This document shows, in pieces, positions 2,090 to 18,005 of a stretch of 18,005 nucleotides of DNA. Each line of letters starts with the position of its first letter. Within the stretch, counting starts at the first letter, position 1. A program made the translations under genes and the position numbers. This DNA is from Hydnum rufescens UP504 (lineage: Eukaryota; Basidiomycota; Agaricomycetes; Cantharellales; Hydnaceae), in NCBI GenBank assembly GCA_014904985.1, contig MU129404.1, positions 1 to 18,005 of the forward strand, read 5' to 3'. A model generated the notes under the pieces. The model ran no database searches and was not told where the DNA came from. It saw only the letters and a list, made by a program, of their open reading frames with translations.

Positions 2090-2455
2090 TGCTTCGTCTC
2101 CTCATCGATCCTTGAACCCCTGTTCGTGTTCGCGTTCGCATTCGTGTTCCCCTTCTCGTTCTCAAGTGGGTCCTTGATTTCCCTTGCATTCTCGCACACG
2201 TTCTTGATCTTCCCTGCATTCTCGTCGACGTTCTCGATCTCCCCTACGTTCTCGCAGTCGTTCTTTTTCTCCCCCACCTTCCTGCACACGTCCTCAATCT
2301 CCCTCACATTCCCACACGCATCCTCGATCTCCCCTGCGTTCTCGCACACGTCCTCCCTCCCCCTTACATTTCCAGACACGTCCGCGATCCCCATTGCATT
2401 CTCGCACACACCCACCCTCTCCCCCACGTTCCAGCACACATCCTTGGCATCCCTC
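2090..2455 (+). repeat. 30-bp tandem repeat encoding an Arg/Ser-Pro tract
   Basis: Units of about 30 bp built on CATTCTCGCACACGTTCTCG and CGATCTCCCC. In the gene's frame they give SRTRS, RSRSP and HPRSPLRSRT-type peptides. The TGA codons at 2175 and 2205 occupy positions where other units carry CGA. A second + frame and the - strand stay open through the tract only because of the repeat. Confidence 0.75.
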
Positions 2456-2781
2456 TGAGCCCCAAAGGGGAAAATTCTATCATTCCCAGTCCCAAGAGGA
2501 CGATCATCATCATCAAGAACGCAATTATCCTATGGGTTCCTCATTCTCTCATCGATGGCCTGCGAGGTCTCCAGGTGTGTCTGATGGACCTCCACGCGCA
2601 CCTGCAACCATGCAGAATCGGCACAGTATGGGTGTGTCGACTTGGGGTCGCCCTGATCCAACCTTCTCTGCATTTCGGAGGGGAGGTTCACAGCCAGTAC
2701 ATGGGTTACGCCCTCGTGCTCTTACAACAACTTTCGGCCCTACACGTGGTCATAACGATGACTGGGGGAGTGAATTTCGTG

Positions 2782-2839
2782 GTGAGCAAGTTTCGTTTTT
2801 TAGTGTATTTCATCTTGTCTAATAGTTTTAATCCTCTAG
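2782..2839 (+). other. Spliceosomal intron in first gene (58 nt)
   Basis: The donor GTGAGC follows CGTG. A CTAAT branch site lies at about 2819-2823 and the acceptor is CCTCTAG. Removing it joins frame 0 upstream to frame 1 downstream (phase 1), so the coding sense continues across it. Confidence 0.75.
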
Positions 2840-3818
2840 CCTCTCGTGGTGGTGAACTGAATAGATCTTCTCGCGGTGGCGCACCGACTGGGCCCAATGC
2901 AACATTCTCTGTTAGTGGTCCCACGCAACCCATCAGCGGTTGGGTTGGGACCACCACTAGTTCTGCTGTTGCAAAGGGATCTCATGTCGATTTGACGTCA
3001 AGTTTTCAGTCCATTCCTCTTGGCCGATGGTTTGCCATCATTGCTGGTCCTCTTCCTAATGACGGCTTTCGTGACATTCAGCTCTGGCTGGATGTGTACC
3101 CCCAAGTCATTGCGGTTCGTCGAGAACGGCAGAAATCGAGGTTCTCCGTGCAGCTGTTGTTTAAAACCCGACAGATACGCGACGAGCTGAAAACCCTTGT
3201 GTCGAGTTGGGCAACACCGCATGGTGTGGATATCGGAACCACCACCGTGGAAGAACCAAGTGGGCCGTCAGAGCGCTTCACGGGTCAGAAAGATCTCAAA
3301 TATGTCGACCAGGTCTATGCTCATGCACGAAATCTAGATGAACTCAATGCTCTGTTGCAGGGAGCACCTCCGTGTATTAAAGGAGGAGCGGAAAGGGCTC
3401 GCTATGGGGAGTTCTTCTTACACTATGATACTTTCCCCCCTCTATCTGGAGCTGCCCCACCGAAAGCCGAGAGGCTGCGCCATCTGGACTGTGTTGAGTT
3501 CAGCACTGAGTGGTTCCTCGCACGCCTTGCTGGTTACGGGACCATGTTGATCTTCCTCTTCGTCGTATGGAGATGCTCATACGTGCACATAAGTATCGTT
3601 CATTGGGTGCTGGCTTTGCCGTGCCTATGTGGCCTACTGAGGGTCCAGTTGATGCTGTTATTCGTCGTATTTCTCGAATGGCGCGAGATGACATGGGATC
3701 TATATTGACACCGAACCCCGTTGCCGATGAATCGTTTGGCTTCGCGAAATCTTCCTCCGTTTGGCGTATCAAATTGGACTTGGGCCTTGATCGCCCTCAG
3801 TATCCAAAGTCTGAATGA

Positions 3819-4143
3819 TGCGTTACATTTCCATACATGGTGTTTTTTTGTTTTATGCATCACATATTTGTGTCTGATTGTACGCCTTAATGGCACTACT
3901 ACCGCACTAGAATGAAAACTCGGTTTGGCTCGTGCGCTTAATTGCGAATCCGGCAGTTCCCATTGGGAGAGTAAAGTTTTCTGCTTTCCTTGGTCCTTTC
4001 GTTTTACAAGTTTAAGAAGCTTAAACGTAATTTTTTATACTTGCCCAAGCAGGGCGTGGACTGACAATGCTCGCCTTTTCCATGGTGTAGGACGTACCCG
4101 ATAATTTCATGTTATTCTGGGCCACACGTTTAGCTCTTCATAC
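3819..4143. other. Intergenic segment, no gene seen
   Basis: Follows the stop of the first gene. T-rich runs are visible, and a small inverted repeat, GTTTAAG/CTTAAAC, lies near 4010. No open frame with coding character was found on either strand. It may hold the 3' UTR of the first gene. Confidence 0.5.
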
Positions 4144-4640
4144 CTTTTGGCTGTGGTTGCCTTCGTGTGACTGGGGCTATACTCAATTGGCGCGTCCTCA
4201 TCAATTCCACATCCTTTGGCTGTGGTTACCTTCGCGTGACTGGGGCTACATGTTTCGATTGGCACGCTCTCCGCCAATCCCATTTTTGGCTGTGGTTGCC
4301 TTCGCGTGACTGGGGCTACACGTTTCGATTGGCACGCTCTCCGCCAATCCCATTTTTGGCTGTGGTTGCCTTCGCATGACTGGGGCTATACATCCCAATC
4401 GGCACACTCTCATCAATTCCACATCCTTTGGCTGTGGTTGCCTTCGCGTGACTGGGGCTACATATCTCAATTGCCGCACTCTTCATCAATCCATGTCTTT
4501 TGGCTGTGGTTGCCTTTGCGTGACTAGGGCTACACATTTCAATCGCTGGGCTCTTTATCAATCTCACATCTTTTGGCTGTGGTTGCCGTCGCATGACTGG
4601 GGCTACACATCTCGATCGACTACATGTTTTGGGGCTTAGG
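4144..4640 (+). repeat. Minisatellite, seven units of about 71 bp
   Basis: The core TGGCTGTGGTTGCCTTCGCG followed by TGACTGGGGCTACA begins at 4148, 4217, 4287, 4357, 4429, 4501 and 4574, so the period is 69-73 bp. Between cores lies a more variable segment of the type TTCGATTGGCACGCTCTC. Copies 3 and 4 are nearly identical, which suggests recent duplication. The repeat lies just upstream of the second gene. Frames open through it are repeat artefacts. Confidence 0.9.
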
Positions 4641-4780
4641 TTGGCACGTTTTCATCCTGACTCCAAGCTCCTGCGCCACAGTTGCCTTTGCGTGGTTGTG
4701 GTGCTTACCCCCTCACCGGTTTCTCGTAACGGCGGATCTGTGCGTCATTTCCCCCTGCCACCATCATCCACGTCTTTCAG

Positions 4781-7013
4781 ATGTCTTCACGGACGACATG
4801 TTCAACCGCCACCAAATTGGCCGCAGGCAATAAGCGGACCAAAACTACTACCTCCAGGTCGTCCACAAGCACTACTTCGAAGGGAGCCAAGGCGCCGTCT
4901 AAACCCACCAATGCCATGTCAACACGCGTGAATGGTTCTCAGCGAAGAGGACTTAATTTAACCAATGAATTGGAGGGCAGTTCGGGGGATGGTGTTCTCC
5001 CACATGTACCTTCGAAGGCTTCTCAGAAGTCAGGCCCGAGTCGGGAGGACAATAATTCTGGCTCTGAACATCCTCCTCGCCATGCGACTAATAAATTCAG
5101 CACTAGACCGGTGGTAGAAGTTCCGCATTCACGCCATGCTGCAGCCCCTGTTTCCTCATCATCAACAAGGGCTCAAGTACCCCCTGTGGATCCGTTCTCG
5201 CCCACATCTCCACCCTCTAATTCTTTTGAGCCTCCCAGCAGTCCTTTACCTGGCCCGTCAGACCCCTTTGACTCTACGACAGAAGGTACCGCAGTCCGAG
5301 GTGCCGAAGATCGGGATCTTGAGGAAGAGGAGAACCGTGGAGACGCTTCTGATGTCATACATCGCGGTGGCCGGTTCTCGATCGACCAAATCAAGTGGGC
5401 CCATGCGACAGTGTGAAGAATTCTTTGCAGAGCTGGATGCAAAGGCCAAGGAGTGGAATTGAAGTCCGGAGTCAGTTCGGCGCATCGCCTTGGCCGTCTC
5501 ACCCTCCAAAACGTCGCGGAACGGGAATGCATGGAATGCATTCCAGGCATTGTACAAGAAAGACCATCCAAATACTGATCCATCAGGTACGTCCTTTATT
5601 CAGTATATATTCTTACACTAAGAATACTAATTGATGCTACTAGTGTCTGCTCGGGATTATACGGTGAACATGGTGCAGCCAGCATATGCACAGCTCATCG
5701 AATCCTTCGGAGGAGAGGAATCCCCAGAATGGGCTACGGAAGCTGCGCAGCTTATAGCAGAACATGAGAGTGCGAAGGTTGGAGCTACCAAGCTGGTCGC
5801 ACAATCCGGTGGTGACATTGCATGGGTTATGGCCAATCAAAAGGACAAGTGGACACACGATATGCAGTGGCTGGCCACCATGGATATTCACACAATGTTT
5901 TTGATGGTTACTGGCAATGCTGCCTCCCCTGCTGCGCATGCTCAGAATGAATGTCGCCTGGGATCCGAGGAAATGGCTGCTTGGTACAACTCTAACTTTA
6001 CGATGTCCACTCAACTTGCGAATATATATCGATTTATCCTCTCTCGCCGTTCCCGGTATGCTGAGCTCGACCAATTCAATGAGGAGCAAGGGAAGAGGAA
6101 GCGTGATGAAGACCTCAGTACTACGTACAAGACCAGGACTGCTATCAAGGATACATTGATAGGCCTTTTCTCGCCTTTTGTGAAGATGACAAAGTTTCCT
6201 TGGACCAACCTCGCCAAGGTCCTAGTTCAAAACAAACTTATCATTTCGAATTTTGTGCCAAACGACAAATTTCCGAACTTCGGCATGTCACTCTCAGATC
6301 TTCACACAACCGATCAGTATAAAACATTGTACTATGCACTCGAGGAGTCTAGCCCTGAGAAGAAGATAGTCATCACCAAAGTGGATAACTGGCCAGTTGG
6401 AGAAGCTGAGGATGTGGCACTTATCACGGACAGGCATGGAGAGGTGATACTCTCGCTGGCAGCAGCACGGGATTATACTGCCCGGCATGGTGCTGGAGAG
6501 ACTGGAGGAGGGGAAGGGAGCAAGGGGGTGAAACGGAGCGGGATGGACGCGGGTCTTGATGACAGGAGAGGGAACAAGACCACAGTGGGAAAAAGGAAGA
6601 AGGCTGCTGTGAAGTCCGTTGCACTCATACGGGATGAATCGGAGGATGCTGACTCGGTAGACAACTTACTGAGCTTTGGCAGTCGGGCTGCATCTCATGA
6701 TTCCAGTAATTCATCAAGTATTCCCCGCGGCCACTCCTCACTGCACAACCAGCAGCAGCTCCCAAATCAGCCCTGCCCAAAGCCCCGCTTTACCTCTTCT
6801 CTATCTGTAACTACAGCACCGCCGCCAGTACTCAATGGGCTCGGTCACTTGGAAAATGTGAACATCGACTTGGGTTCTGGGTTTCTCGATCAATGGACAG
6901 AGGAAGAACTTGATGTGGTGGCCGGACAGATTGGTTATCAAGGGTTTGGGGACAGCTCTAGTATGAACTTGAATGGGCAACCCACATATTCTGGAGAGCA
7001 ACCTGGCTATTAG
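4781..7013 (+). pseudogene. Unknown basic/Ser-rich protein, possibly DNA-binding; lightly broken
   Basis: The ATG at 4781 follows CGTCTTTCAG and opens a Ser/Thr/Lys-rich, disordered N terminus of about 190 residues. An acidic patch (DRDLEEEENR) and a folded stretch starting RFSIDQIKWAHATV come next. At about 5412 one extra base shifts the frame (2 to 0); the sense then continues EEFFAELDAKAKEWN, a TGA at 5460-5462 and SPESVRRIALAVSPSKTSR NGNAWNAFQALYKKDHPN. The last part loosely resembles an HMG-box or SANT-like helix start, but I cannot assign it. After a 57-nt intron the frame is open for about 456 residues to TAG at 7011-7013. That part has a helical domain (about 5650-6450), a basic cluster GKRKKAAVK near 6590 that may be a nuclear signal, and a disordered Ser/Pro/Gln-rich tail. 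If intact, the product would be about 725 residues. With only two lesions, it may be a young pseudogene or carry sequence errors. Function unknown. Confidence 0.65.
5587..5643 (+). other. Spliceosomal intron in second gene (57 nt)
   Basis: Donor GTACGT, branch site TACTAAT at about 5625-5631 and acceptor GCTACTAG. Splicing (phase 1) joins the two coding frames into DHPNTDPS-VSARDYTVN with no stop. This is one of the clearest introns in the window. Confidence 0.85.
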
Positions 7014-7525
7014 GACCCCTTTATGCTGCTTCCAACTTCTGGTCCAAGTGTCCCTGCCTTGATGGGTCGACACCTTGGGCATTAATACTACCATCTCCTT
7101 CCCTTGATTTCTTCTCTTGTCCTTCAACGGACATGTTCTTGTTTTATTACAGTCCTTCAATGGGCATCCTGCGTCTCAAAAAACCGTGCTAACTATGTGT
7201 TTCCCTCATCTTTGCTTTGTCTTTACCATAGTTAATATTACAATAGAATTAACATGCAGAGCACATGTATGAGGTTCCAAAACTGTGCAAGTCCATCAGT
7301 TGAACCCCAATTAGGCCCTAATTGGGCCCTAATCAGGACCCAAGTTGAAACCAGAATGGTGGATTGGGGCCCCAATAGTGTCTGGTACCTACTTAGGTAC
7401 CAAATCATGCCCCAGAATAGATACCTAAGAAGGGGGTCACATACAGCTGCCCAAGGTGGATCGTGGGGGGGTTTCGTTTGGTTGGGGTTTTGGCGGGGGG
7501 CTTTGTTGTGGGTTCCAATAACAAC
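7014..7525. other. Intergenic region with short inverted repeats
   Basis: Probably begins with the 3' UTR of the second gene (T/C-rich, 7014-7200). A cluster of small inverted repeats follows: CCAATTAGG/CCTAATTGG (7307-7325), GGGGCCCC (about 7366-7373) and GGTACCTA/TAGGTACC (7384-7401). The right end, from about 7430, is the outermost exon-like segment of the - strand hairpin array. No convincing gene. Confidence 0.5.
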
Positions 7526-7669
7526 CTAAAATAAATAAATAATACATTAGTGAAAAAGAAAAAAAAAAAAAAAAGCCACACAAGAGGAGCAGCGTACACT
7601 GCTCCTTTTGCGCAGTTGTACATATGCTTACTTGACATGACCACACGCCTGCCGAAGCGGGTGTGTGGT
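7526..7669 (-). other. Module 1-4: hairpin A plus 106-nt putative intron with poly-A tract
   Basis: Hairpin A is 7640-7669. The putative intron is 7631 down to 7526: donor CAA|GTAAGC, hairpin B about 7578-7612, branch CACTAAT, acceptor TTTTAG. On the + strand a run of about 16 A lies at 7559-7574, which is poly-T in the sense direction. Confidence 0.65.
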
Positions 7670-7821
7670 TCTGTCTGCATTTTCTGTGGTCTTGCGTCAT
7701 GGGTTTCCGGTCCCGGGTATCGTCTGGTGGGCTGCGGGTTTTGTTTGGTTGGGGGTTTGGCGGGTTACGTTCGTAGCTTTCGTTTGGTGGGGGGCTTCGT
7801 TGTGTGTTCAAATGACAATAT

Positions 7822-7959
7822 GGAATAAAAAATAATAGTTAGTGAAAAAGAAAAAAAAGAAAAGCCACGCAAAAGGAGCAGCATACGCTGCTCCTTTTGT
7901 GTGGTTGTACAGATGCTTACCTTAAATTTACCACACACCCGCCAAAGCGGATGTGTGGT
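7822..7959 (-). other. Module 1-3: hairpin A plus intron-like part with lost acceptor
   Basis: Hairpin A is 7930-7959. The donor AAG|GTAAGC starts at 7920 and hairpin B is 7865-7904 with a GGAGCAGC/GCTGCTCC stem. Where the other modules have TTCTAG, the - strand reads TTCCATATTG, so the acceptor AG is missing. Confidence 0.6.
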
Positions 7960-8061
7960 TCCATTGGGGTTTTGTCTGGCCAGCCGTCGTTGGCGGGTCG
8001 CATCATCATTTCTGGGTGGTTCATTCGGCGGATCGTCATTTTGCTGCTTCTGGTCGATAAC

Positions 8062-8202
8062 CTAGAATAATAAATAATGTATTAGTTAAGAACTAAAATC
8101 GGTGCAAAAGAGTGGCATCTGCTGCTCTTTCACACCGTTGTGGGTGTATAAGCGTACTTACCTTATATAGAACCACACACCCGCCGCAGCGGGTGTGTGG
8201 TT
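8062..8202 (-). other. Module 1-2: hairpin A plus 100-nt putative intron
   Basis: Hairpin A is 8171-8202, AACCACACACCCGC paired with GCGGGTGTGTGGTT. The putative intron is 8161 down to 8062: donor AAG|GTAAGT, hairpin B 8101-8136 with mismatches, branch CTAAT, acceptor TTCTAG. Confidence 0.7.
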
Positions 8203-8332
8203 CGCGTTGCCACCTCTTGTGCTTTCGTTTGGCGTTGTTTCCTTTCGTTTCATGTGGTTTTGTTTGGCGTGTTGCCATGGGGGGCCTGGCCGGTTGGATT
8301 TCGTCATTTGGCACCTGGGACCAGGCCAGGAC

Positions 8333-8474
8333 CTAGAATAATAACTAAGTTAGTAAAGAAATTCGATGCAGCGCAAAAAGAGCAGCTTTTGCTGCTCTTT
8401 TGCGCCACAGTATCATTGGGGGAAGGGAACTCACCTTAAATAGTACCACACACCTGCCGCAGTGGGTGTGTGGT
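8333..8474 (-). other. Module 1-1: hairpin A plus 102-nt putative intron
   Basis: Hairpin A is 8445-8474 (ACCACACACC...GGTGTGTGGT). The putative intron is 8434 down to 8333: donor AAG|GTGAGT, hairpin B 8371-8405, branch TACTAAC, acceptor TTCTAG. Confidence 0.7.
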
Positions 8475-8525
8475 CGTGTGCTCGCCTGTCTGGGCTGTTG
8501 CTGGGTGTGGCTGCGTAGTTGCACA
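8435..8525 (-). other. Type II leading exon-like flank of palindrome 1
   Basis: Between palindrome 1 and the first donor of array 1. On the - strand it begins TGCAACTACGCAGCCACACC and contains CAGCAACAG. It matches the right flank of palindrome 2, not the right flank of its own palindrome. Confidence 0.7.
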
Positions 8526-9163
8526 ATTCAATGCCGGCAAGTGCCGATACTCAAGAAGCGCCCAAGCGCTGGCACTACATGCACAATACACATTAATAGC
8601 AAGCATGTAAATGTGTAATAAATACTATATAATAAATATTTGTCCAAAAAAAAGGAAGAAGACGATAATAGTAAGGCAGAGTTCAATAAGACATGATATG
8701 GCTAATTGGATTGGACCACTTCTACGCATCAGAATAGGCCCAAATTTAAATATAGTAATGGTATGTATACACCCTACATGGGCGGCTAATTATATTGGAT
8801 GGTTCTCACATTTTTCAAGTTTTCACGCCTTCAATTCCCTATTTAGGGAATTGAAGGCATGAAAACTTGAAAAATGCGAGAACCGTCCAATATAATTAGC
8901 TGCCCATGTAGGGTGTATACATACCATTACTATATTTAAATTTGGGCCTATTCTGATGCGTAGAAGTGGTCCAATCCAATTAGCCATATCATGTCTTATT
9001 GAACTCTGCCTTACTATTATCGTCTTCTTCCTTTTTTTTGGACAAATATTTATTATATAGTATTTATTACACATTTACATGCTTGCTATTAATGTGTATT
9101 GTGTGTGTAGTGCCAGCGCTTGGGCGCTTCTTGAGTATCGGCACTTGCCAGCGTTGAATCTAC
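8522..9163. repeat. Palindrome 1: giant inverted repeat, arms of about 320 bp
   Basis: The symmetry axis lies at 8842/8843 in CCCTATTTAGGG. Arms pair almost completely out to ATTCAATGCCGGCAAG (8526) and CTTGCCAGCGTTGAAT (9159), with almost no spacer. The arms include AAATTTAAATATAGTA and TATATAGTATTTATT stretches that could act as divergent TATA-like elements, since the flanking arrays run outward. Near-identical 83-codon frames on opposite strands here are simply the two arms. Confidence 0.95.
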
Positions 9164-9256
9164 ATCTTACTTCCCATCTCCAAACCACAATAAACAACCG
9201 CCTGAAAAGGCAAGCACCCGACCACACACCCACCGTTGTGGGTGTGTGGTCACAAG
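9160..9256 (+). other. Type I leading exon-like flank of palindrome 1
   Basis: Runs from the palindrome edge to the first donor of array 2 and contains CCGCCTGAAAAGGCAAGC and hairpin A at 9220-9251. Its closest partner is the left flank of palindrome 2 on the - strand. Confidence 0.7.
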
Positions 9257-9357
9257 GTGAGTATTTTTTTAGTAGATACAATGGCGCAAAAAGAGCAGCG
9301 AAAGCTGCTCTTTTTGCGCTGCTTTGGAATGTTTTTTACTGACGCGCCTTTTTGTAG
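9220..9357 (+). other. Module 2-1: hairpin A plus 101-nt putative intron
   Basis: Hairpin A is 9220-9251 (GACCACACACCCAC...GTGGGTGTGTGGTC). Donor AAG|GTGAGT is at 9257, hairpin B is 9284-9319 with a GAAA loop, the branch is TTACTGAC and the acceptor TTGTAG ends at 9357. Confidence 0.75.
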
Positions 9358-9409
9358 ATTGGGCCCATCCAACACACCACGATAACCCACGAAACGACGA
9401 GAGCCCAAA

Positions 9410-9640
9410 CAGCAGTGCGGCACACGGCAACGCGACGCACGGCAATGCGATGCGACAAAGCGATACACAACAACGTGCCAACAATGCGACATGGCAACGC
9501 GCCAATGACGTGACACGGCAATGCGGCGCACGGCAAAGCAATACATGGCAACGCACCAACAACACGACCCAGCCACACGCCAACGACGTGACATGGCCCC
9601 ACGCCAACGACGCAACATACGGCACCACGCCAAATGAGGC
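9410..9640 (+). repeat. Short degenerate reiterations of ACGGCAACGC type
   Basis: Within the exon-like segment 9358-9686. Words such as CACGGCAACGCGACGC, ATGGCAACGCGCCAATGACG and CACGCCAACGACGTGACATGG recur at uneven 10-30 bp spacing. Stops occur in two frames; only one + frame is open throughout. Confidence 0.6.
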
Positions 9641-9647
9641 CCCAGAC

Positions 9648-9794
9648 CCACACACCCGCCACAGCGGGTGTGTGGTTCTATGTAAGGTAAGTCCCCGCCC
9701 CCCTCAGTAGCAACAGCCACGCAAAAAGAGCAGCGAAAGCTGCTCTTTTTGCGTGGTTTTTAATTCTTAACTAATTTAAAGTCTTATCTTGTAG
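9648..9794 (+). other. Module 2-2: hairpin A plus 108-nt putative intron
   Basis: Hairpin A is 9648-9675, donor AAG|GTAAGT is at 9687, hairpin B is 9717-9756 with outer CCACGC/GCGTGG pairs and a GAAA loop, the branch is TAACTAAT and the acceptor CTTGTAG ends at 9794. Confidence 0.75.
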
Positions 9795-9908
9795 GTCTCG
9801 ACATCCCAAACGTACTGGGGCAGAACCCCCGTAACCCCCCTTATCGCCGCCCAAACAATGGGTGCCCGTACGAACCGCCATACGTACGAGCCACAGTACA
9901 TGGCCCCA

Positions 9909-10051
9909 GTACCCCACACCACCGCAGCGGGTGTGGGGTACTGCAAAGTATGTTTTATATTTAGTAGACACAACGGCGCAAAAAGAGCAGCGAAAGCTGC
10001 TCTTTTTGCACTGCTTTGAATTTTGTTACTAATGTGTTGTTATTATTCTAG
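9909..10051 (+). other. Module 2-3: hairpin A plus 104-nt putative intron
   Basis: Hairpin A is 9909-9941 with a modified outer stem (GTACCCCACACC/GGTGTGGGGTAC). Donor AAA|GTATGT is at 9948, hairpin B is about 9978-10013 with a GAAA loop, the branch is TACTAAT and the acceptor TTCTAG ends at 10051. Confidence 0.75.
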
Positions 10052-10208
10052 ATTGAGACCTCCAAGGCACGCAACGCGACACACGGCAATGCACCAAACC
10101 AGGACATGACGCACAGCAACGCACCAAACGAAGATGCGCCACACCGCAACACGACATACGGCAACGCACAAAACAAGGGTGCGACCACGTCAAAGGAGGG
10201 CCTGAGGA

Positions 10209-10356
10209 ACCACACACCCGCTGTGGCGGGTGTGTGGTACTATATAAGGTGAGTTTCCCGCCCCCCAGTAGCTACACCCGCGCAAAAAGAGCAGCTTTCG
10301 CTGCTCTTTTTGTGCTGGTTTGAATATTTGTACTAATATATCTTTTATTACTCTAG
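10209..10356 (+). other. Module 2-4: hairpin A plus 108-nt putative intron
   Basis: Hairpin A is 10209-10238, donor AAG|GTGAGT is at 10249, and hairpin B is 10280-10315 with a TTTC loop, the reverse complement of the usual GAAA. The branch is TACTAAT and the acceptor CTCTAG ends at 10356. Confidence 0.75.
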
Positions 10357-10416
10357 ATTGTGGCCACAACGAAAACCCGCGAAACCAACAAGGGCCCGAA
10401 CGGCAACACGCCAAAT

Positions 10417-10490
10417 GGCGACGCAACGAACGGCGACGCAACGAATGGTGACGCAACGAACGGTGACGTGACGAACGGCAATGCACCAAA
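10417..10490 (+). repeat. 15-bp tandem repeat, about five copies
   Basis: Unit GGCGACGCAACGAAC with small changes (GGTGACGTGACGAAC). In one frame it encodes NGDAT repeats. It lies in the last exon-like segment of array 2. Confidence 0.75.
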
Positions 10491-10528
10491 CAAGAACCGA
10501 ACGCGCCCAACAAGTGGCCCTATATACG

Positions 10529-10633
10529 GTGAGTCCCCCCCGGTATGTATTTTCCTTGGCTACATTGCACAAGAAGAGCAGCCTCTGGCTGCTCTTCTTG
10601 AGTGCATGGGTGAGCCCCACTGGGCAAGCCTAG
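10529..10633 (+). other. Module 2-5: 105-nt putative intron without hairpin A
   Basis: Donor ATACG|GTGAGT. Hairpin B at about 10567-10605 has a changed stem (CAAGAAGAGCAGC/GCTGCTCTTCTTG) that still pairs. The acceptor call CCTAG at 10629-10633 rests on length match; no clear branch site was found. Confidence 0.45.
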
Positions 10634-10692
10634 TGTATATAATAATAATAAATAAATAAATAAATAATAAATCATAAATAATAAATAATCCT
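10634..10692 (+). repeat. TAA/TAAA microsatellite
   Basis: A/T-only tract of TAATAA and AAATAAATAAAT words between array 2 and the GC-rich start of the KDZ element. Confidence 0.8.
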
Positions 10693-10696
10693 AATG

Positions 10697-10775
10697 GCTA
10701 GGGGCCCCAGGGGCCCCTGGGCTGCTTGACCTGCCCCCTCAACTGAATTGCAGGGGCCCCTGGGGGCCCCCTGGG
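10697..10775. repeat. GGGGCCCC-rich left flank of KDZ gene
   Basis: Two blocks of overlapping palindromes, AGGGGCCCCAGGGGCCCCTG and CAGGGGCCCCTGGGGGCCCC, about 40 bp apart. Similar words recur on the right side of the gene. Confidence 0.8.
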
Positions 10776-10796
10776 TCTGATATCTAGTTAGAGTAT

Positions 10797-10853
10797 ATAA
10801 ATGCAACCTTTGAAATATCTAATTAGATACCGATAATTGGCTGACCAGGCTGG
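10797..10853 (+). repeat. Left copy of ~56-bp direct repeat
   Basis: Shares ATAAATGCAA, AATATCTAATTAGA and GATAATTGGCTGACCAG with 14461-14517, in the same orientation and with the same spacing. It overlaps the presumed start of the transposase reading frame. Looser similarity extends another ~45 bp upstream into the GGGGCCCC block. Confidence 0.8.
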
Positions 10854-11742
10854 CCATGCACATTGGTGCAGTGCTGCTGCATGGCAGTGGGATCGTGATG
10901 TTATACTAGCTTTGGTTTGTCCATACATGGCATACATACGCCTGTTGCAGCAAGGACAGTCTTGTACAGATCCTCCTCCTATCAAATGCTCTTGCAACTG
11001 TCGTGGAGTATTAAAACAAGTGACTGCTGTATATATGGATTGTAAGGATTCCTTTCATTCTGTGTTGGACCTAAAGTCTGATCATTTCTCATTAGACCTT
11101 GAGTACATAAAGCTACAAATATGCCCATGTGCTCCTGCACCTCTGCAACTGGTGCAGCGGGGTTTATTTCCCTGCTCGCCGGTATATCCAGCTTTGGCAG
11201 TCAGCCTCGAGATGCTGGAGTTTGTATCAACGCTGTTCTTGCATCTGGCTCCCAATGAGACTGCATGGTCTGATGCCCTCACTACATTCTTGGCAAGACG
11301 GGGGCCATGTATTTGAAGCACAAGATTCACTCCACCGGCAATTCGCATCTGCATTGGGGCAATTCCAAATCTTAGTGCACGTCGTGAATGCCGAAGTGGA
11401 CAAGCAAATCATCATTGCTCACTGTGAAATATCATCTTGGGATCCCATTGATCGAGACAATATTGATCCAGATGCAATTGTACTGCCGAAGGTTGATGAA
11501 TCCATGCCCATAACGGCTCAGTTGTATGTCAGTGCCCTTAGTAGCGATGGCTGCCTTGTTAGTGAACCCACCACCCGCATGATGAACGGTCATGCCAAGG
11601 GGAATGTAAACGGGCCAACCATGCCATCGCGAACCACACTCCCACACCCAGGGCCCGATCCCCCCATTAGTCCATCTGATTACCTTCGCTCTCATTGCCC
11701 ACTGTGCTTTGGTGGAGTTAACAAAGTCGGGGAGAGCAAACT

Positions 11743-11815
11743 GTGAGTAGTACACATTCTATTCACACTCTTGTCATGTCGTGATGCTGATATAGTGAAT
11801 CTTGTTGTATTGTAG
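11743..11815 (+). other. KDZ intron 1 (73 nt)
   Basis: Donor GTGAGT after AAACT; acceptor TATTGTAG. A GCTGAT word at about 11785 could be the branch. Splicing (phase 2) joins GESKL to PKFFLCLDVCF, restoring the family order. Confidence 0.8.
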
Positions 11816-13188
11816 CCCCAAGTTCTTCCTGTGTCTTGATGTGTGCTTTGCCCTTAGATGAAACAAGGACTATGACTGCCATCCTGGCCAAAAAAAGCAA
11901 CCTGGCACCCAGGATCCTCGAATTGTCCCACCGGGAACTCATGAGCTGCCCCAGAGCTTCTTGGAAGCTTGGAAAGCAAGGGTTGAGGCAGCCCAGCCTG
12001 TTAAGGGGCATGAACGTCGTACTAAACACACGTCTAAGCAGGGGGAGTACGTGGTTGATGTTGCCGATGGTGAGGGCGATTGTGTTGAGCCAGGGCTGCG
12101 CGTGCCGAACTCGTACCTTGACAACTGTGGCGAGTCTTTTATTGCTGCTGATGGGGAGAGAGTGAAGACCCCTGGACAGCACTTCTCAGACACTGGCATG
12201 ATGGCAGGTGTTTGTCGCCATGATCGAGTCATTGTCTGGAGCAATATGTGGACGCCTGGAGAGCAACAGTTCTATGCACTGGCAATAATTGATTTTGTCA
12301 TGGCACAGTTGCCTGTACACTGGCGAGTTGGCATTCTCTACGATGTCGGCTGTCAAATTCACCGAAGCACCCTGAAGTGGAACCTCTTGCCACAATGGAT
12401 GCCACAGATTGTATTTGGAATCAGTGTCTTCCATGCATACAGCCATCAGTGGGTCTGTCAGTTGTGGTATCATCCCCGGAATGGCAACATCTGGGGTCTC
12501 ACTGACAGAGAGGGCTGTGAATGTCTTTGGAGTGATCTTCGAAGCCTTATCCCAAATCTCCATGTCACCGGCTTCCATCATTGATTGTTCCTCCTGGACC
12601 TCCATATTGAACATCAGGACCATCTGAAGTTATGCCAGGCTAGTGTTTGGCTGGAAAAGTGCGTGTGGGCAACAAAAGCCCAACTTGCACTTGCTGAAGC
12701 AAAGAGGGACAAGATCCAATACACCAATGAGTACTTGCAAGCTCAATTTGAAGCACAGCGAGCCTATCAAAGCTGGCCTTTAGAGTGACAGTCTAAGAAG
12801 AAAGGTTTTCATGCTGTGGAGAAGATCCTTGCCATCCGTCAGTGTCTGAATGCTGCTCAAGATCTCGTCGAGGTCCTCCAGAAACAACTTATGTCGGTGC
12901 CTCTCTCAGACAGCATTGCAAGCCGGAATGAAGTTGCAGAGATCACGACTTCGATTGCTGAACAAGAGAAGATTGTCTCGCGTCCATCAAAGCAAGATAA
13001 TGACTTGACGGCTGTCCTTCAACTTGGTGATCCAATATCGTATGAGAAGCTCAAGAAGATGAGGGGCCATGCTTGGTTTGAACACCAGCTTAATATGCGG
13101 GCTCTTAAAGCCTGTATTATTGCGAAAGCGTGTGAGAAGAACTTTGAGACTCGTAATCTCACAGGAGCTTTCAGGAGTAAGGCAGTAG

Positions 13189-13254
13189 GTATGTCATTTC
13201 CTTTCAAGTGAAGGCTTTCCAAAACTCATGAGCAACTTTGCTTCATACTCCTAG
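13189..13254 (+). other. KDZ intron 2 (66 nt)
   Basis: Donor GTATGT after GCAGTAG; acceptor TCCTAG. Splicing (phase 1) joins FRSKAV to DHNTMEHTTKALKRR with no stop. Confidence 0.8.
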
Positions 13255-13661
13255 ACCATAACACTATGGAGCATACAACAAAAGCATTGAAGAGACGCTA
13301 TCGCTCTGTCAAGAGTCTTGTTGCAGACTATAACAAATGGCGACTTAATATGATGAAGCTTCATGGTCAGGGCAGGATCTCAAAGAATGCAATAATACCT
13401 CCACCTATCAATATGAAGGGTCTTTTTGGCCTTGATGTCAACAATGATATCTGGCAGGATATTGGACTCACTGATGATGAGTTTGATGGAACTGTTCCCC
13501 TTGGCTTGGGGATGAGGATGTCCAAAATGGCATCTGGCTCATGCAAGAGGTGGTAAATTGTTGCAACGAGCTTTATCTATGCGACCGAGAAAGCTACTCC
13601 CTGCAGCAATGGTTTGAAGATGAATCTGCTGCATTGATGGCAGCTTCAAATGCATGTCAAG

Positions 13662-13723
13662 GTGTGTTTGTATGGTTTTCCTCCCAGCTTTCCAAGGCCC
13701 TAATTGTGTATAAATTATTCCAG
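13662..13723 (+). other. KDZ intron 3 (62 nt)
   Basis: Donor GTGTGT after TGTCAAG; acceptor ATTCCAG. Splicing joins ASNACQ to DDDLKFFLQEHIQ across a frame change (2 to 1), which supports a real intron. Confidence 0.8.
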
Positions 13724-14162
13724 ATGATGATCTTAAGTTCTTCCTTCAAGAACACATTCAAACCCTCTGTGATTTGGGGAAGAGGTGGGGTCAGGCTATT
13801 GATGCTTTGAATGTGGCTCTGCCTGGCAAGTTGAGGGGTTCCCAAAGGCACACAAATTCACAATCAGGTGGTGTCTCCCTGGTTTTTGAAGTGGACAGCT
13901 CGGATGATGAGGAGGATTTTGAACTTGAACCTCCACTTGTGCTTGCTGATAGTGCAATCCTTGCTGCTGCTGACTATACCCATCAGCAGGGACTCTCAAG
14001 TGATGAAGGTAGTCAGTCTAATGGTACTGACAGTGAGGATGAGTGATTCCTTGACTCTAGATATCTTTTTACTATGTGTACTACTATATCAATATCTAGT
14101 TTGTCCGTCCCTATATTGAACTCTAAGAAGTAAGGGGACTCCACTCTTAGAGACTCGGGCCA

Positions 14163-14440
14163 TATGCACAGGGGCCCCTGCTGTACACACAGGGGCCCTG
14201 CCATGCACACAGGGCCCTGCCATGCACACAGGGCCCCTGCCATGCACACAGGGGCCCCTGCCATGCACACAGGGGCCCCTACTGCACATGCAGGGGCCCC
14301 TTCGGAGTAGGGTCCGAGGCCATTTCTAGGCCTTAAACATGGCTGTGGGGCCCCTGGGGCCCTACATCAAGAGTGGGGGCCCCTCAGCATATGGGCACAG
14401 ATGATAATCATATATGAGGGGTCCCTAGGGGCCCCCATGG
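14163..14440. repeat. GGGGCCCC minisatellite, right flank of KDZ gene
   Basis: Seven units of about 20-21 bp of the form CATGCACACAGGGGCCCCTG fill 14163-14300, followed by scattered GGGGCCCC words to about 14440. Each unit is a small palindrome. No coding sense is convincing. Confidence 0.85.
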
Positions 14441-14460
14441 AAATGTATCTTATTAGACTA

Positions 14461-14517
14461 GATAAATGCAAGGCTAATAATATCTAATTAGACATGGATA
14501 ATTGGCTGACCAGCCTG
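14461..14517 (+). repeat. Right copy of ~56-bp direct repeat
   Basis: Counterpart of 10797-10853. It ends GCTGACCAGCCTG, directly against the truncated exon-like end of array 3. Confidence 0.8.
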
Positions 14518-14519
14518 TT

Positions 14520-14785
14520 GCCGTGTCGTGCTGTCATGCGTTGTGTTTCTGTGTCGCATTGCCGGATGTTGCGTTGCTGCGTCGTGTTTCCATACATCGC
14601 ATGGCTGTTTAGGCTCTCATCGTGCGTTGGACGAGGCCTCAATCTAAAATAAATAAAGAGACGTTAGTAAGATGTTCCAAAGCAGTGCAAAAAGAGCAGC
14701 TTTCACTGCTCTTTTTGTGCCATTGTATCTACTAGAAAAAATACTCACCTTGTGACCACACACCCACAGCGGCGGGTGCATGGTC
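14520..14785 (-). repeat. Array 3: one leftward module, truncated at KDZ element
   Basis: Module 3-1 on the - strand has hairpin A at 14754-14785 and a putative intron from 14748 down to 14644 (105 nt). Donor AAG|GTGAGT, hairpin B 14685-14720 with a GAAA loop in sense, branch TACTAAC, acceptor TTTTAG. The intron is very close to module 2-1, including GTGAGTATTTTTT and AGTAGATACAATGGC. The next exon-like segment (ATTGAGGCCTCGTCCAACGC) also matches array 2 and then stops at the KDZ repeat. Confidence 0.8.
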
Positions 14786-14846
14786 ATGCGGTTGCCTTTT
14801 CGGGCGGTTGCTTGTTGTGGTTGCAGAGATAGGAAGCAAGATGCAG
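14749..14846 (-). other. Type I leading exon-like flank of palindrome 2
   Basis: On the - strand it contains CCGCCCGAAAAGGCAACCGC and hairpin A. It matches the right flank of palindrome 1 (9160-9256). Confidence 0.7.
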
Positions 14847-15498
14847 ATTCAATGCCGGCAATTGCCGATACTCAAGAAGTGCCCAAGTGCTGGTGCTGCA
14901 AGCACAGCACACAATAGTACCAAACATGTATATTTAAAATAAATACTATATAATGAATATTTGTCCAGGAAAACCCGAAGAAGGTGATGATAATGAGTCA
15001 GAGCCCAATAGGCATGAGACAGCGAATTGCAGAGTGGATTGGGCCACTTCTACACATCCAAATTGGCCCAAATTTAAATATAGTAGTGTTATATATACAC
15101 TCTACATGGGCGATTGATTATCTCGGATGATCCTCACATTTTTCAATTTTTCATGCCTTCAATTCCTAAATAGGGAATTGAAGGCATGAAAAATTGAAAA
15201 ATGCGAGGATCATCCGAGATAATCAATCGCCCATGTAGAGTGTATATATAACACTACTATATTTAAATTTGGGCCAATTTGGATGTGTAGAAGTGGCCCA
15301 ATCCACTCTGCAATTCGCTGTCTCATGCCTTATTGGGCTCTGACTCATTATCATCACCTTCTTCGGGTTTTCCTGGACAAATATTCATTATATAGTATTT
15401 ATTTTAAATATACATGTTTGGTACTATTGTGTGCTGTGCTTGCAGCACCAGCGCTTCGGCGCTTCTTGAGTATCGGCAATTGCCGGCGTTGAATTTGC
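14842..15498. repeat. Palindrome 2: giant inverted repeat, arms of about 320 bp
   Basis: The axis is near 15170 in CCTAAATAGGG. It is a diverged paralogue of palindrome 1 with the same order of motifs: terminal CGGCAATTGCCG, TATATAGTATTTATT-like, AAATTTAAATATAGTA, and central CTTCAATTCC. Its two arms resemble each other more than either resembles palindrome 1. Confidence 0.95.
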
Positions 15499-15694
15499 AA
15501 CTACACAGCCACACCCAGCAACAGAAATGCGACCACGCAACCACAACACAACAGCAACAGCAGCAGCAGCAGCAGCAACAGCAACAGCAGCAGCAGCAAC
15601 AGCAACAGCAGCAACAGCAGCAGCAGCAGCAGCAACAGCGCACAACCGCAACCACACGACCACACACCCGCATCAGCGGGTGTGTGGTCATAAG
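15495..15694 (+). other. Type II leading exon-like flank of palindrome 2
   Basis: Begins TGCAACTACACAGCCACACC and matches the left flank of palindrome 1 on the - strand. It is longer because of a CAG/CAA expansion. It ends with hairpin A and donor AAG|GTATGT. Confidence 0.7.
15551..15639 (+). repeat. CAG/CAA trinucleotide expansion
   Basis: About 29 CAR triplets mixing CAG and CAA. It would encode poly-Gln in one + frame, but the host exon-like segment has no established coding frame. The homologous flank of palindrome 1 has only CAGCAACAG. Confidence 0.9.
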
Positions 15695-15796
15695 GTATGT
15701 TTTGTCTCAGTAGATACAATAGCGCAAAAGAGTAGTGCAAGCTACTCTTTTTGCGCTGCTATGAATTTTATACTAACGTAGCCTTTATTATTCCAG
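15658..15796 (+). other. Module 4-1: hairpin A plus 102-nt putative intron
   Basis: Hairpin A is 15658-15689 and donor AAG|GTATGT is at 15695. Hairpin B is 15722-15756 with GAGTAG/CTACTC instead of GAGCAG/CTGCTC and a GCAA loop. Branch TACTAAC; acceptor TTCCAG ends at 15796. Confidence 0.75.
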
Positions 15797-15843
15797 GTCA
15801 AAACCAAAACAAACAACAGGCCGCCCAATGAGTGGGCTCAGGA

Positions 15844-15982
15844 ACCACACCCACTGCAGCGGGTGTGGTACTGTAAGGTGAGTCTCCTCCCCCCCCATAG
15901 ATGCAGCCGTGCAAAAAGAGCAGCGAAAGCTGCTCTTTTTGCATTGCTTTACGTTTTTTTAACTAATATTATTTTATTATAG
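15844..15982 (+). other. Module 4-2: hairpin A plus 105-nt putative intron
   Basis: Hairpin A is 15844-15869 (shortened stem, ACCACACCC/GGGTGTGGT approx.). Donor AAG|GTGAGT is at 15878, hairpin B is about 15909-15944 with a GAAA loop, the branch is AACTAAT and the acceptor TTATAG ends at 15982. Confidence 0.75.
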
Positions 15983-16079
15983 GCATTGCCACAAATGAAG
16001 ACCCATGAAGCAACCCCCCAGAATGATAACACACCCGCAAACGGGATCCGCGAATGATGATGCGCCACACAAAGAGATG

Positions 16080-16209
16080 AACCACACACCCGCAGTAGTG
16101 GGTGTGTGGTTCTATACTTGATATGTACCCCAACGACGCAAAAAGAGCAGCTTTCACTGCTCTTTTTGCATCACTTTTAATTATTTTTAACTAATGATTT
16201 TTATTCTAG
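16080..16209 (+). other. Module 4-3: hairpins intact, donor changed to AT
   Basis: Hairpin A is 16080-16111. Where GTATGT is expected, the sequence reads ATATGT at 16121. Hairpin B is about 16138-16170 with a TTTC loop; branch AACTAAT and acceptor TTCTAG (to 16209) are kept. Confidence 0.6.
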
Positions 16210-16290
16210 ATATCATCATGAAGGCAGAGCCACAGAACAACCCCTCAACAGAACAAAAACACCCCCGCAACGATGACGCAGCACGAAGAG

Positions 16291-16434
16291 AACCACCCAC
16301 CCGCAGTAGCGGGTGTGTGGTTCTATGGCGGTATGTAATGTTCCCCCGATGACCCAAAAAGAGTGGCAAAAGCTGCTCTTTTTGCATCACTTTTAATTTT
16401 TTAACTAATGATTTCTTATTCTAGGTACAGTATT
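16291..16434 (+). other. Module 4-4: hairpin A plus 104-nt putative intron
   Basis: Hairpin A is 16291-16322. Donor GCG|GTATGT is at 16331, hairpin B is 16350-16387 with mismatches in the left arm (GAGTGGC), the branch is AACTAAT and the acceptor TTCTAG ends at 16434. Confidence 0.7.
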
Positions 16435-16530
16435 GTCACAAATGAAGACCGAAGACCCATGAAGCAAGCCCCCCCACAATGATAACATGCCCACAAAGGG
16501 ACCCCTGAATGATGATGTGCCAGAACCACG

Positions 16531-16625
16531 GTGAGCATATAACCACACAAAAGGAGCAGCATATGCTGCTCCTTTTGTGTGGCTTTTCTTTTTCCTTTTT
16601 ACTAACGTATTATACATTATTTTAG
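16531..16625 (+). other. Module 4-5: 95-nt putative intron without hairpin A
   Basis: Only GAACCAC remains of hairpin A, directly before donor GTGAGC. Hairpin B is 16544-16583 with long outer pairing (CCACACAAAAGG/CCTTTTGTGTGG). Branch TACTAAC; acceptor TTTTAG ends at 16625. Confidence 0.7.
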
Positions 16626-16768
16626 GTTGTCTGAACCCACAACCCCACCAAGCAAACACACGAGAACGGCAACAGACCCGCCAAATGAAACCCACGAGAG
16701 TTCAAACCCCCAACATGACGACCAACCCCCGTACCGAGTACGAACCGCACAACCGCGGTACAAACCAA

Positions 16769-16870
16769 GGACCACACCCACTTCAGTGGGTGTGGTCCTA
16801 CAAGCTTTTTATTTGATTTCTATATGTACAATGATGCAAAAGGAGCAGCACAAGCTGCTCCCTTTGTGTC
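16769..16870 (+). other. Module 4-6: hairpins kept, splice sites lost
   Basis: Hairpin A is 16769-16798 (GGACCACACCCAC/GTGGGTGTGGTCC). The donor position after CAAG reads CTTTTT. Hairpin B is 16833-16870. A TACTAAT branch word follows at 16884, but no TAG acceptor stands at the usual distance. Confidence 0.6.
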
Positions 16871-16970
16871 ACTTTGAATTTTTTACTAATCGAGAGTCCA
16901 ACTGAAGCCACACCAAAAGAAAACCTGATGAACGCACCACCAAACCCCGCCAAATGAAAAACCAATGGAA

Positions 16971-17108
16971 ACCAGACACCTGCCATGGCAGGGATCTGGT
17001 ACTATTTAAGGGAGGCGATTTTCCCATATCCAACAGTGCAAAAAGAGCAGCGAAAGCTGCTCTTTTTGCATCGCTTTTAATTTTTTAACTAATAAATTTT
17101 CATTCTAG
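16971..17108 (+). other. Module 4-7: diverged hairpin A, donor changed to GG
   Basis: Hairpin A is 16971-17000 (ACCAGACACCTGCC...GGCAGGGATCTGGT), with outer bases changed on both sides. The donor position after TTTAAG reads GGAGGC at 17011. Hairpin B is 17037-17070; branch AACTAAT and acceptor TTCTAG (17108) are kept. Confidence 0.6.
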
Positions 17109-17189
17109 GTATCACCGCAAATGAAGACCCGCAAAGCCCACCAGAACGACAACATCCCCGTGAATGACGACACGCCAAACACAGAGATG

Positions 17190-17328
17190 AACCACACACC
17201 GCAGTAGCAGGTGTGTGGTTCTATACAAGGTATGTAATGTAATGCACTCCAACGGCGCAAAAAGAGGTGCGAAGACAGCTCTTTTTGCATCATGTTAACT
17301 TGTACTGATCTAAATTTTTGTATTCTAG
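17190..17328 (+). other. Module 4-8: hairpin A plus 99-nt putative intron
   Basis: Hairpin A is 17190-17220. Donor AAG|GTATGT is at 17230. Hairpin B, about 17254-17293, is degenerate in its centre. Branch TACTGAT; acceptor TTCTAG ends at 17328. Confidence 0.7.
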
Positions 17329-17433
17329 ATCTTCCTTCCCCCCAAATGAGTACGTGCCCAAAACCCCCCCAACCCACCCAAGAACTGTACGGAAAACCGG
17401 CAGTCGAAGGTACATGACCCCGGACAACAACAA

Positions 17434-17585
17434 GTACCACACCCCTGCCAATGCGGGTGTGTGGTACTACAAGGTATTTTTTTTAAACTTTCTACATCTA
17501 CAGTGATGCCAAAGGAGCAGCGCAAGCTGCCCCTTCGGCATCACTTTGAATTTTTTTACTAATGTTCATTATCATTCAATTCTAG
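17434..17585 (+). other. Module 4-9: hairpin A plus 112-nt putative intron
   Basis: Hairpin A is 17434-17467 with outer GTACCACAC/GTGTGGTAC. Donor AAG|GTATTT is at 17474. Hairpin B is 17505-17542 with GATGCC/GGCATC outer pairs and a GCAA loop. Branch TACTAAT; acceptor TTCTAG ends at 17585. Confidence 0.7.
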
Positions 17586-17733
17586 GATTGAATTTGAAGC
17601 TCCTGAAACGAAGACAACAGACAGCCACAACCCCCAAATGACCTGCACAACGGTGAACCGCCAAGCCAAGCCGCCCAAATGGCCACCGACGAGCCGGGCC
17701 AAGCCCATCCAAGTCCCAAGGCAGCAATGCCCA

Positions 17734-17914
17734 GTACCACATGCCCCCCTCAGCAGGGGTGTGGTACAAAAGGTCTGTTTTTTAACTTAATATTTTGCTG
17801 CCCAACACCCCAGCAACATGCCCCCTGAACCGCATCTGAACACCGGATGACCCCCCATCCAAAGTCTCAAGGAAGCAACGGATGGTACCACACCTGCCCT
17901 AGCGGGTGTGGTAT
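17734..17914 (+). other. Modules 4-10 and 4-11: hairpin A copies, hairpin B missing
   Basis: Hairpin A is 17734-17767, followed by AAG|GTCTGT at 17773 but no hairpin B. A second hairpin A is 17885-17914 with GTATGT overlapping its 3' edge, so it may not be a working donor. The array is decayed here or changes structure beyond the window. Confidence 0.5.
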
Positions 17915-18005
17915 GTTTTTTTAATTGAATTTTTAAATAAATAAATACATAAGTTGATAAAAAAACATGAGACTGCCAAATGAAAACAGCCCCCACCCGG
18001 GGTGA

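Follow-up and report, generated by a model that had tools for sequence, protein, structure and literature searches.

The hairpin arrays in the window, the whole 18,005-nucleotide stretch of Hydnum rufescens UP504 DNA analysed here, appear to form the body of a DNA transposon, not free introners. Most probably, they make up the two arms of an element of ~5 kb in which a central palindrome likely serves as the promoter and the modules are predicted to supply two divergent non-coding RNAs with their exons and introns. Established directly are the build and insertion site of one complete copy, the counts across the genome, the pattern of splice signals, the missing coding phase and, in one aligned module, the strong conservation of donor and hairpins.

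The mobile unit is the entire palindrome-centred element, as delimited in the one complete copy examined (C144:136025-141021; 4,997 b). This copy has CA..TG ends, imperfect terminal inverted repeats of ~70 b (comparison of its Y end with the X end of the same family gives a score of 53, the best of 200 shuffles being 26) and a perfect 8-bp target-site duplication, CTCTTTAC, on both sides (CAG is common to the edge, and longer readings are also allowed); its edges are terminal repeats, not splice sites. The insertion target is a Ty3/gypsy-type integrase gene: when the flanks are joined, a 277-aa open frame runs across the insertion site; one flank encodes an integrase zinc-binding domain, and the opposite flank Tf2-type SH3 and chromodomain. 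A matching duplication was found in one of the six copies tried (C144) and in none of C318, C212, C353, C346 and C120. The arrays in these five are doubled or interrupted by other insertions.

The genome of H. rufescens UP504 holds hundreds of palindrome-centred copies of the element. A genome-wide count of copies, as the preliminary description had suggested, returned 6,031 cores of the intronic (B) hairpin with at most 2 mismatches, 3,319 of them exact (reversed control, 0), and 538 ends of palindrome arms with at most 2 mismatches (control, 0); among the ~100 arm ends listed, which come from many contigs, many form -/+ pairs ~600 b apart. The terminal inverted repeats, target-site duplication, many dispersed copies and absence of a transposase of its own place the element among the non-autonomous TIR DNA transposons.

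Two copies, P1 and P2, lie in the window (Table 1), with their palindromes oppositely oriented, which corrects the first reading. P1 aligns with the C144 copy (94%, 3403 b) and with C120 (90.5%, 3435 b). The array had been placed at 7526-18005; the array itself is borne out (19 B hairpins within 7400-18005), and its left edge moves to 7459, where homology with two other copies ends. P1 is cut at this left end, and the other copy of its target-site duplication is outside the window. AATA/AATAATA repeats are listed in the A/T-rich tail of P1. The terminal repeats, the insertion of P1 into the KDZ gene and the near-identity of the arms had not been noticed in the preliminary description.

Table 1. 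Features of the two element copies and the KDZ gene in the window
Feature	Position	Strand	Remarks
Element copy 1 (P1)	7459..10852		palindrome-centred; left end cut at 7459
Y half P1 module 4, predicted intron	7526..7631	-	A 7634-7675, B 7574-7617
Y half P1 module 3	7863..7959	-	hairpins and donor kept, acceptor AG lost
Y half P1 module 2, predicted intron	8062..8161	-	A 8170-8203, B 8100-8137
Y half P1 module 1, predicted intron	8333..8434	-	A 8445-8474, B 8376-8401
Palindrome P1	8526..9159		arms of 316 b with 97% complementarity; predicted back-to-back promoter
X half P1 module 1, predicted intron	9257..9357	+	A 9220-9251, B 9280-9323
X half P1 module 2, predicted intron	9687..9794	+	A 9644-9679, B 9715-9758
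X half P1 module 3, predicted intron	9948..10051	+	A 9907-9943, B 9972-10015
X half P1 module 4, predicted intron	10249..10356	+	A 10209-10238, B 10276-10319
X half P1 module 5	10529..10600	+	donor and B hairpin; acceptor and A hairpin not found
A/T-rich tail with AATAAA words	10637..10695	+	judged by eye; may be a polyadenylation region
X-end terminal inverted repeat of P1	10774..10852		resembles KDZ right end
P1 target site GCCATGCA	10853..10860		inside KDZ gene; uninterrupted on C13 and C264
KDZ transposase gene copy	10853..14517	+	has CxC1 domain and, within 11862-12581, KDZ domain; P1 interrupts the gene
KDZ family right end	14425..14517		34/40 among matches listed stop at 14517
Element copy 2 (P2), start	14518..15502		palindrome, and X half that is cut by KDZ element; Y half runs to window end
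X half P2 module 1, predicted intron	14644..14748	-	B 14681-14724
Palindrome P2	14839..15502		arms 97-99% complementary; predicted back-to-back promoter
Y half P2 module 1, predicted intron	15695..15796	+	A 15658-15689, B 15726-15751
Y half P2 module 2, predicted intron	15878..15982	+	A 15844-15869, B 15905-15948
Y half P2 module 3	16079..16209	+	both hairpins, branch and acceptor present; donor weak or lost
Y half P2 module 4, predicted intron	16331..16424	+	A 16289-16324, B 16350-16389
Y half P2 module 5, predicted intron	16531..16625	+	B 16541-16584; A hairpin not found
Y half P2 module 6	16768..16873	+	A and B hairpins; no acceptor; sole donor-like word inside hairpin A
Y half P2 module 7	16971..17108	+	hairpins, branch, acceptor; donor weak or lost
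Y half P2 module 8, predicted intron	17230..17328	+	A 17189-17221, B 17252-17293
Y half P2 module 9, predicted intron	17474..17585	+	A 17433-17468, B 17502-17545
Further lone A hairpin	about 17738-17765		by eye
Lone A hairpin	17886..17913	+	then A/T-rich tail with AATAAA words (tail by eye)

The element itself encodes no KDZ transposase; the KDZ gene in the window is the target of P1 and is uninterrupted at the same place on C13 and C264. The X and Y ends of the element are both similar to the right end of this KDZ-encoding family from the same genome (score of 80 for the X end, best of 200 shuffles 24; 75 for the Y end, shuffle best 25), and because of this resemblance the element is likely to be mobilised in trans by a KDZ transposase. 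The left end of the KDZ copies lacks the repeat that is found at both element ends: at the left edge common to C13 and C264, the scores are 14 and 20, below the shuffle maxima of 32 and 33. This missing repeat was counted against the best explanation. The affinity is to the Kyakuja-Dileera-Zisupton fungal DNA transposons, among which 8-bp duplications have been reported for Zisupton and a Dileera family, and CA..TG termini with 7-bp duplications for Kyakuja (PMC12730594); as far as that account goes, the element is like Zisupton and Dileera in its duplication and like Kyakuja in its termini. Unlike KDZ elements, it has no transposase and its body is palindromic, with two arms of hairpin modules.

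The preliminary description had counted about 21 modules, 15 of them intact, with introns of 95-112 nt. The pattern stands. The recount over 7400-18005 gives 19 B hairpins, distributed over four segments of the array, and two lone A hairpins close to the right end; under the present thresholds, both splice signals survive in 14 of the 19 modules, whose introns measure 94-112 nt, and five lack a signal. The modules are real and far above chance: when the sense strand was fixed by the side of the palindrome alone (19 palindromes), the donor, branch and acceptor followed one another in order, as in spliceosomal introns, in 77 of 131 B hairpins (donor, 107; branch/acceptor, 96), compared to 2/131 in the antisense control and 0.7/131 with shuffled flanks. 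At least one signal is missing in the other 54. This set leaves out C120, three stretches without a detected palindrome, and hairpins near the centre or near stretch ends. That the orientation of the splice signals follows the array likewise holds in a wider set of stretches: the better strand points away from the palindrome in 152 of the 157 B-like hairpins with a palindrome in view (166 in 22 merged stretches overall). Among the five exceptions, the one on C271 is not a B hairpin, those on C335 and C368 are A hairpins admitted by a loose filter, and two lie at the left extreme of the C331 stretch. The 152 likewise include a few A hairpins. The median intron is 104 nt long, or 62 nt after subtraction of hairpin B (n=126, modules chosen for having signals); five protein-gene introns in the window, placed by eye, span 57-73 nt. 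The T content in C144 is 0.13-0.16 in exons and 0.35-0.39 in introns.

Could the arrays be a decayed multi-exon protein gene of the transposon? A 306-aa open frame passes through four predicted junctions in the X half of P1, exon indels relative to two copies are multiples of 15 except for three 1-b gaps, and an annotated 257-aa H. rufescens protein matches 23% of this frame at 44%. Nevertheless, we consider such an origin very unlikely. In the nine spliced halves with three or more consecutive clean introns, the fewest TAA and TAG codons per transcript sum to 4 versus a random-phase expectation of 3.9, and all stops to 32 versus 33.6, in agreement with the earlier statement that there is no shared reading phase; substitutions are distributed about evenly over codon positions (18/19/21 versus C144, 31/31/42 versus C120), and the longest ATG frames in the C144 spliced halves, 53 and 73 aa, fall short of the means for shuffled sequences (85 and 79). 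It is extremely improbable that the modules are an introner-like family, each spreading alone and creating introns, even though many carry their own donor, branch and acceptor (77/131) and introners of DNA-transposon origin have been described (PMC9860276). The arrays do resemble introners and introner-like elements as these are portrayed in the sources consulted, namely, in consisting of repeated units with their own splice signals and in the link to DNA transposition (PMC9860276, PMC4457414). Unlike introners, however, the splice sites here are numerous in each copy and belong to a non-coding unit within a larger element; what moved in the complete copy is the whole element with its terminal repeats; and in the two-contig sample C1-C2, 46 of the 50 B sites listed have another within 2 kb (judged clustered by spacing alone), the four isolated-looking sites inspected are all in arrays with no single module among them, and no single module within a gene was seen in this small sample. 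Of the two proposals made initially, the multi-intron non-coding unit built from module copies is thus sustained by splice direction and lack of phase, whereas introner-like movement module by module is not supported, the unit that moved in the complete copy being the whole element.

A further alternative concerns the hairpins as such. In 29 aligned copies of X module 1, the difference at non-CpG sites is smallest in the donor (0.000), hairpin B (0.009) and hairpin A (0.029), compared with 0.078 for exon 1, 0.119 for the palindrome arm and 0.264 for exon 2, and the branch and acceptor columns are no more conserved than their surroundings (0.131 and 0.162). The conserved stems are compatible with action of the A and B palindromes as DNA, that is, as CACTA-like sub-terminal repeats bound by a transposase or helper protein, with the splice signals a side feature. 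The stems are indeed near-exact palindromes repeated in both arms, with variable loops, and G-U is not clearly more frequent than A-C among their mismatches (B, 161 versus 127; A, 73 versus 62; outside CpG-like contexts, B, 35 versus 64, and A, 17 versus 18), so that there is no sign of maintenance of pairing at the RNA level in the present copies, a point that also weighs against the favoured reading. We nonetheless regard this explanation as rather unlikely, given that it does not account for the donor, branch and acceptor at fixed distances and directed away from the palindrome, the invariant donor, or the U-poor exons and U-rich introns. CACTA sub-terminal repeats are many and short and occur in both arms, as here, but the repeats of this element are hairpins alternating around splice donors. 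Near-perfect arms of about 300 b would suit read-through of the palindrome into a ~300-bp hairpin dsRNA feeding RNA silencing, with the arrays as passengers; this is quite improbable because the splice signals are directed outward, and transcription therefore more likely starts in the palindrome than crosses it.

The two-armed transposon with divergent non-coding RNAs is the reading that we favour, and the palindrome likely functions in it as a back-to-back promoter (the promoter and polyadenylation readings were made by eye from the sequence). The arms are near-identical inside well-preserved copies while subfamilies diverge; those of P1 differ by 6 CpG-type changes and by nothing else over 298 compared positions. 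Their likeness within a copy is probably maintained by gene conversion in a hairpin or cruciform form and, the arms being kept alike, both halves would retain one promoter. Foldback elements and palindromic MITEs are similarly non-coding and multi-copy, with long inverted repeats; unlike these, only the ~320-b arms by the centre are near-identical here, and the outer halves are distinct ordered modules with splice signals.

Each copy would likely give rise to two long, heavily spliced, non-coding RNAs running outward from the palindrome. Hairpin B may act as a zipper stem that folds the ~104-nt intron to ~62 nt and brings the donor and branch point together. The folded ~62 nt is within the range of the few ordinary introns in the window. 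In the zipper-stem introns of Saccharomyces cerevisiae, the limits given are a stem at least 10 nt from the donor and at least 20 nt from the branch, with linkers of 42-85 nt (PMC12350175); 106 of 119 modules have a donor-branch stem at the published linker lengths, and 81 of 119 satisfy all three limits. Unlike in those introns, nearly the same stem recurs thousands of times, together with an exonic hairpin, in a mobile element. The donor is partly paired, not free, in 4/4 minimum-energy folds run, which was counted against the best explanation. Of the 135 modules with a clear donor, 129 have a hairpin A, which spans positions -24 to -20 in every case. At the exon end, hairpin A might cover the RNA immediately 5' of the junction and in this way prevent loading of the exon junction complex, which would let a long, intron-rich non-coding RNA escape intron-linked decay. 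A more far-reaching and doubtful possibility is a selfish element with splicing itself as its product: in its tandem self-folding intron modules, one hairpin would act as a zipper within the intron and another would sit on the exon-junction site, and the two divergent non-coding RNAs, very efficiently spliced, would either escape both intron-linked decay and transposon silencing or occupy the splicing machinery, with a KDZ transposase moving the element in trans.

Non-autonomous DNA transposons are usually regarded as short, silent passengers. The element described here, which appears to contain two non-coding units rich in introns, has spread thousands of hairpin modules in one mushroom genome. 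It is an example of palindrome arms staying alike while copies diverge, and its modules form a natural library of near-repeats that vary in donor, branch, stem and spacing, from which one could learn, by RNA-seq alone, how intron and exon structure affect splicing.

Throughout the four array segments of the window, the repeating order is hairpin A (ACCACACACCCGC..GCGGGTGTGTGGT) in the putative exon, then a donor, then hairpin B (GCAAAAAGAGCAGC..GCTGCTCTTTTTGC) in the putative intron, followed by a branch word and TAG. The preliminary description of hairpin modules carrying splice signals holds: 14 of the 19 B modules in the window retain both signals, at a spacing of 94-112 nt. Among 131 hairpins, with the sense strand assigned from the palindrome side only and GTGTGT words within hairpin A not counted as donors (as also in the stem-mismatch, zipper-distance and hairpin A figures below), donor and branch/acceptor are both present in 77 on the sense strand vs 2 on the antisense strand and 0.7 in shuffled flanks. 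The splice direction follows the array, as originally proposed: across 22 merged stretches, 152 of the 157 hairpins have their better splice strand directed outward from the palindrome. A search of the genome (63.2 Mb, 539 contigs, the window being all of contig C480) yielded 6,031 matches to the B core at no more than 2 mismatches and none in the reversed control. In other collections, the core occurs in 5 contigs from viruses and in at least 119 stretches of prokaryote DNA, among the matches listed nearly always as one site per stretch; these are probably chance matches or bacterial terminators. Of 42 Rfam matches up to E 5 in window 7400-18005, none reaches the gathering score; the top sub-threshold matches are microRNA models located on the palindromes. 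No description of such an element was found in the literature, judged by titles and abstract openings.

In every element read, a palindrome of ~640 b is accompanied by two arms (X and Y) whose first exons differ, and X-type and Y-type arms are paired in all 7 palindromes for which both arm ends were caught (20 arm ends). Genome-wide, there are 538 arm ends, and many of those listed form inverted pairs ~600 b apart. The palindrome arms are kept alike inside well-preserved copies: the arms differ by 6 CpG-type changes and no others in P1 (the left of the two palindrome-centred copies in the window, P2 being the other), by 7 and none in the C144 copy, by 2 changes in C346 and not at all in C353, compared to 33-46 non-CpG changes per arm between subfamilies. 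Arms of other copies show 2 to 18 non-CpG differences; the larger values for C368 (32), C271 (80) and P2 (100) are partly due to the ungapped comparison, which inflates differences where copies carry indels. A second near-perfect palindrome with its own ends adjoins the Y array on C318 and contains a B-like hairpin, plus splice-like words on either side of its centre.

The boundaries of the element are clearest on C144, where a copy of 4,997 b is flanked on both sides by CTCTTTAC and sits in an integrase gene of the Ty3/gypsy type; when the flanks are joined, a 277-aa open frame crosses the insertion site. For the copies on C318, C212, C353, C346 and C120, target duplications were sought and none matched. 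The element ends are inverted repeats of ~70 b, and the X and Y ends are each similar to the right end of a KDZ (Kyakuja-Dileera-Zisupton) transposase family. P1 is inserted in a KDZ gene, because the gene resumes beyond the right end of P1 and is uninterrupted at this site on C13 and C264. Homologs of the KDZ domain come from Hydnum rufescens UP504 in 14 of 34 cases, and one is from Cantharellus. From the sequence of its ends, the element family is likely to be moved by a KDZ transposase.

Other elements lie close to these copies. On C353, an element with the terminus CCAAGGTG apparently splits a B hairpin, its left end not having been found; an inverted-repeat element, TATAGAAGAAGG.., is present on both sides of a shortened palindrome element and also adjoins the C144 copy; and one array begins immediately downstream of the stop codon in a gene resembling window gene 2. 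The left segment of the window, which truncates the Y half of P1, contains two protein genes of unassigned family, with no Pfam match in the five frames searched, and two tracts of tandem repeats. Across the genome, 94 sequences match gene 2, and many of them have open frames; 23 of the 29 homologs of this gene belong to H. rufescens UP504. This segment is probably another mobile element, because its right end is similar to the terminus of an element on C212 (score 62 vs 24 for the best of 300 shuffles).

Coordinates of features in the window and in related stretches of the same genome
Feature	Sequence	Position	Remark
Left segment	window	1-7458	
Tandem repeats	window	1444-1806	30/60-b units, within gene 1
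Tandem repeats	window	4144-4613	72-b units, between the two genes
Homology with C144 and C120 copies	window	7459 to about 10850	
Right end of P1	window	10852	
Right end of KDZ family	window	14517	end of 34 of 40 matches listed; within X half of P2
Second palindrome	L067 (C318:20400-23700)	about 1-3300	~3.3 kb, by eye
Element with CCAAGGTG	C353	near 17890-18462	
Inverted-repeat element	L040	390-1007 and 2368-2770	by eye
Inverted-repeat element	L044	from about 2012	by eye
Array start after gene 2-like gene	L042	about 1520-1600	by eye

Recent copies appear to have undergone strong RIP-like or methylation-linked decay: across window 9123-10520, CpG-type changes account for 56 of 58 exon substitutions relative to C144 and 101 of 104 relative to C120. 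Rhizoctonia solani belongs to the same order as H. rufescens. For that fungus, CpG-biased, RIP-like change is described (PMC4014442). The same decay affects the stems, and RNA-level selection on stems in the present copies is unsupported, because the main CpG positions carry TpG and CpA in comparable numbers and stem mismatches show no clear overall excess of G-U over A-C, a comparison with little power for the period when the copies were active. For X module 1, compared across 29 copies, non-CpG pairwise differences are 0.000 for the donor, 0.009 for hairpin B and 0.029 for hairpin A, against 0.119, 0.078 and 0.264 for the comparison regions (palindrome arm, exon 1 and exon 2, respectively). 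Neither the branch word (0.131) nor the acceptor region (0.162) shows such a reduction, although the acceptor AG itself is retained in all but one of the 29 aligned copies.

The predicted introns, drawn from modules selected for carrying signals (n=126), have a median length of 104 nt, or 62 nt minus hairpin B; five protein-gene introns in the window, placed by eye, span 57-73 nt. Hairpin A is present in 129 of 135 clear-donor modules and in all 129 spans exon positions -24 to -20, where the exon junction complex would load. Of 119 modules, 81 comply with all the zipper-stem limits published for yeast introns. Both hairpins form in the RNA folds predicted for four modules, whose energies lie 6.9 to 8.7 standard deviations under those of shuffles, yet the donor is partly paired in all four. 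Given these lengths, distances, positions and folds, hairpin B would aid splicing and hairpin A would mark or mask the exon junction.

A coding hypothesis, prompted by a 306-aa open frame that runs through the X half of P1, was rejected on comparison with other copies: the frame is disrupted in close copies. A protein search with it matched a single weak H. rufescens model. The lack of a shared reading phase among exons, already remarked in the preliminary description, is borne out in nine predicted spliced halves. Clustering gave 2 exon families under single linkage and 6 under average linkage; these counts were set aside because CA-rich exons align at 0.56 even when shuffled. Of the two possibilities initially raised, the non-coding multi-intron unit is favored, and the free introner family gives way to a different reading: the arrays appear to belong to a transposon family within which putative intron modules have multiplied.
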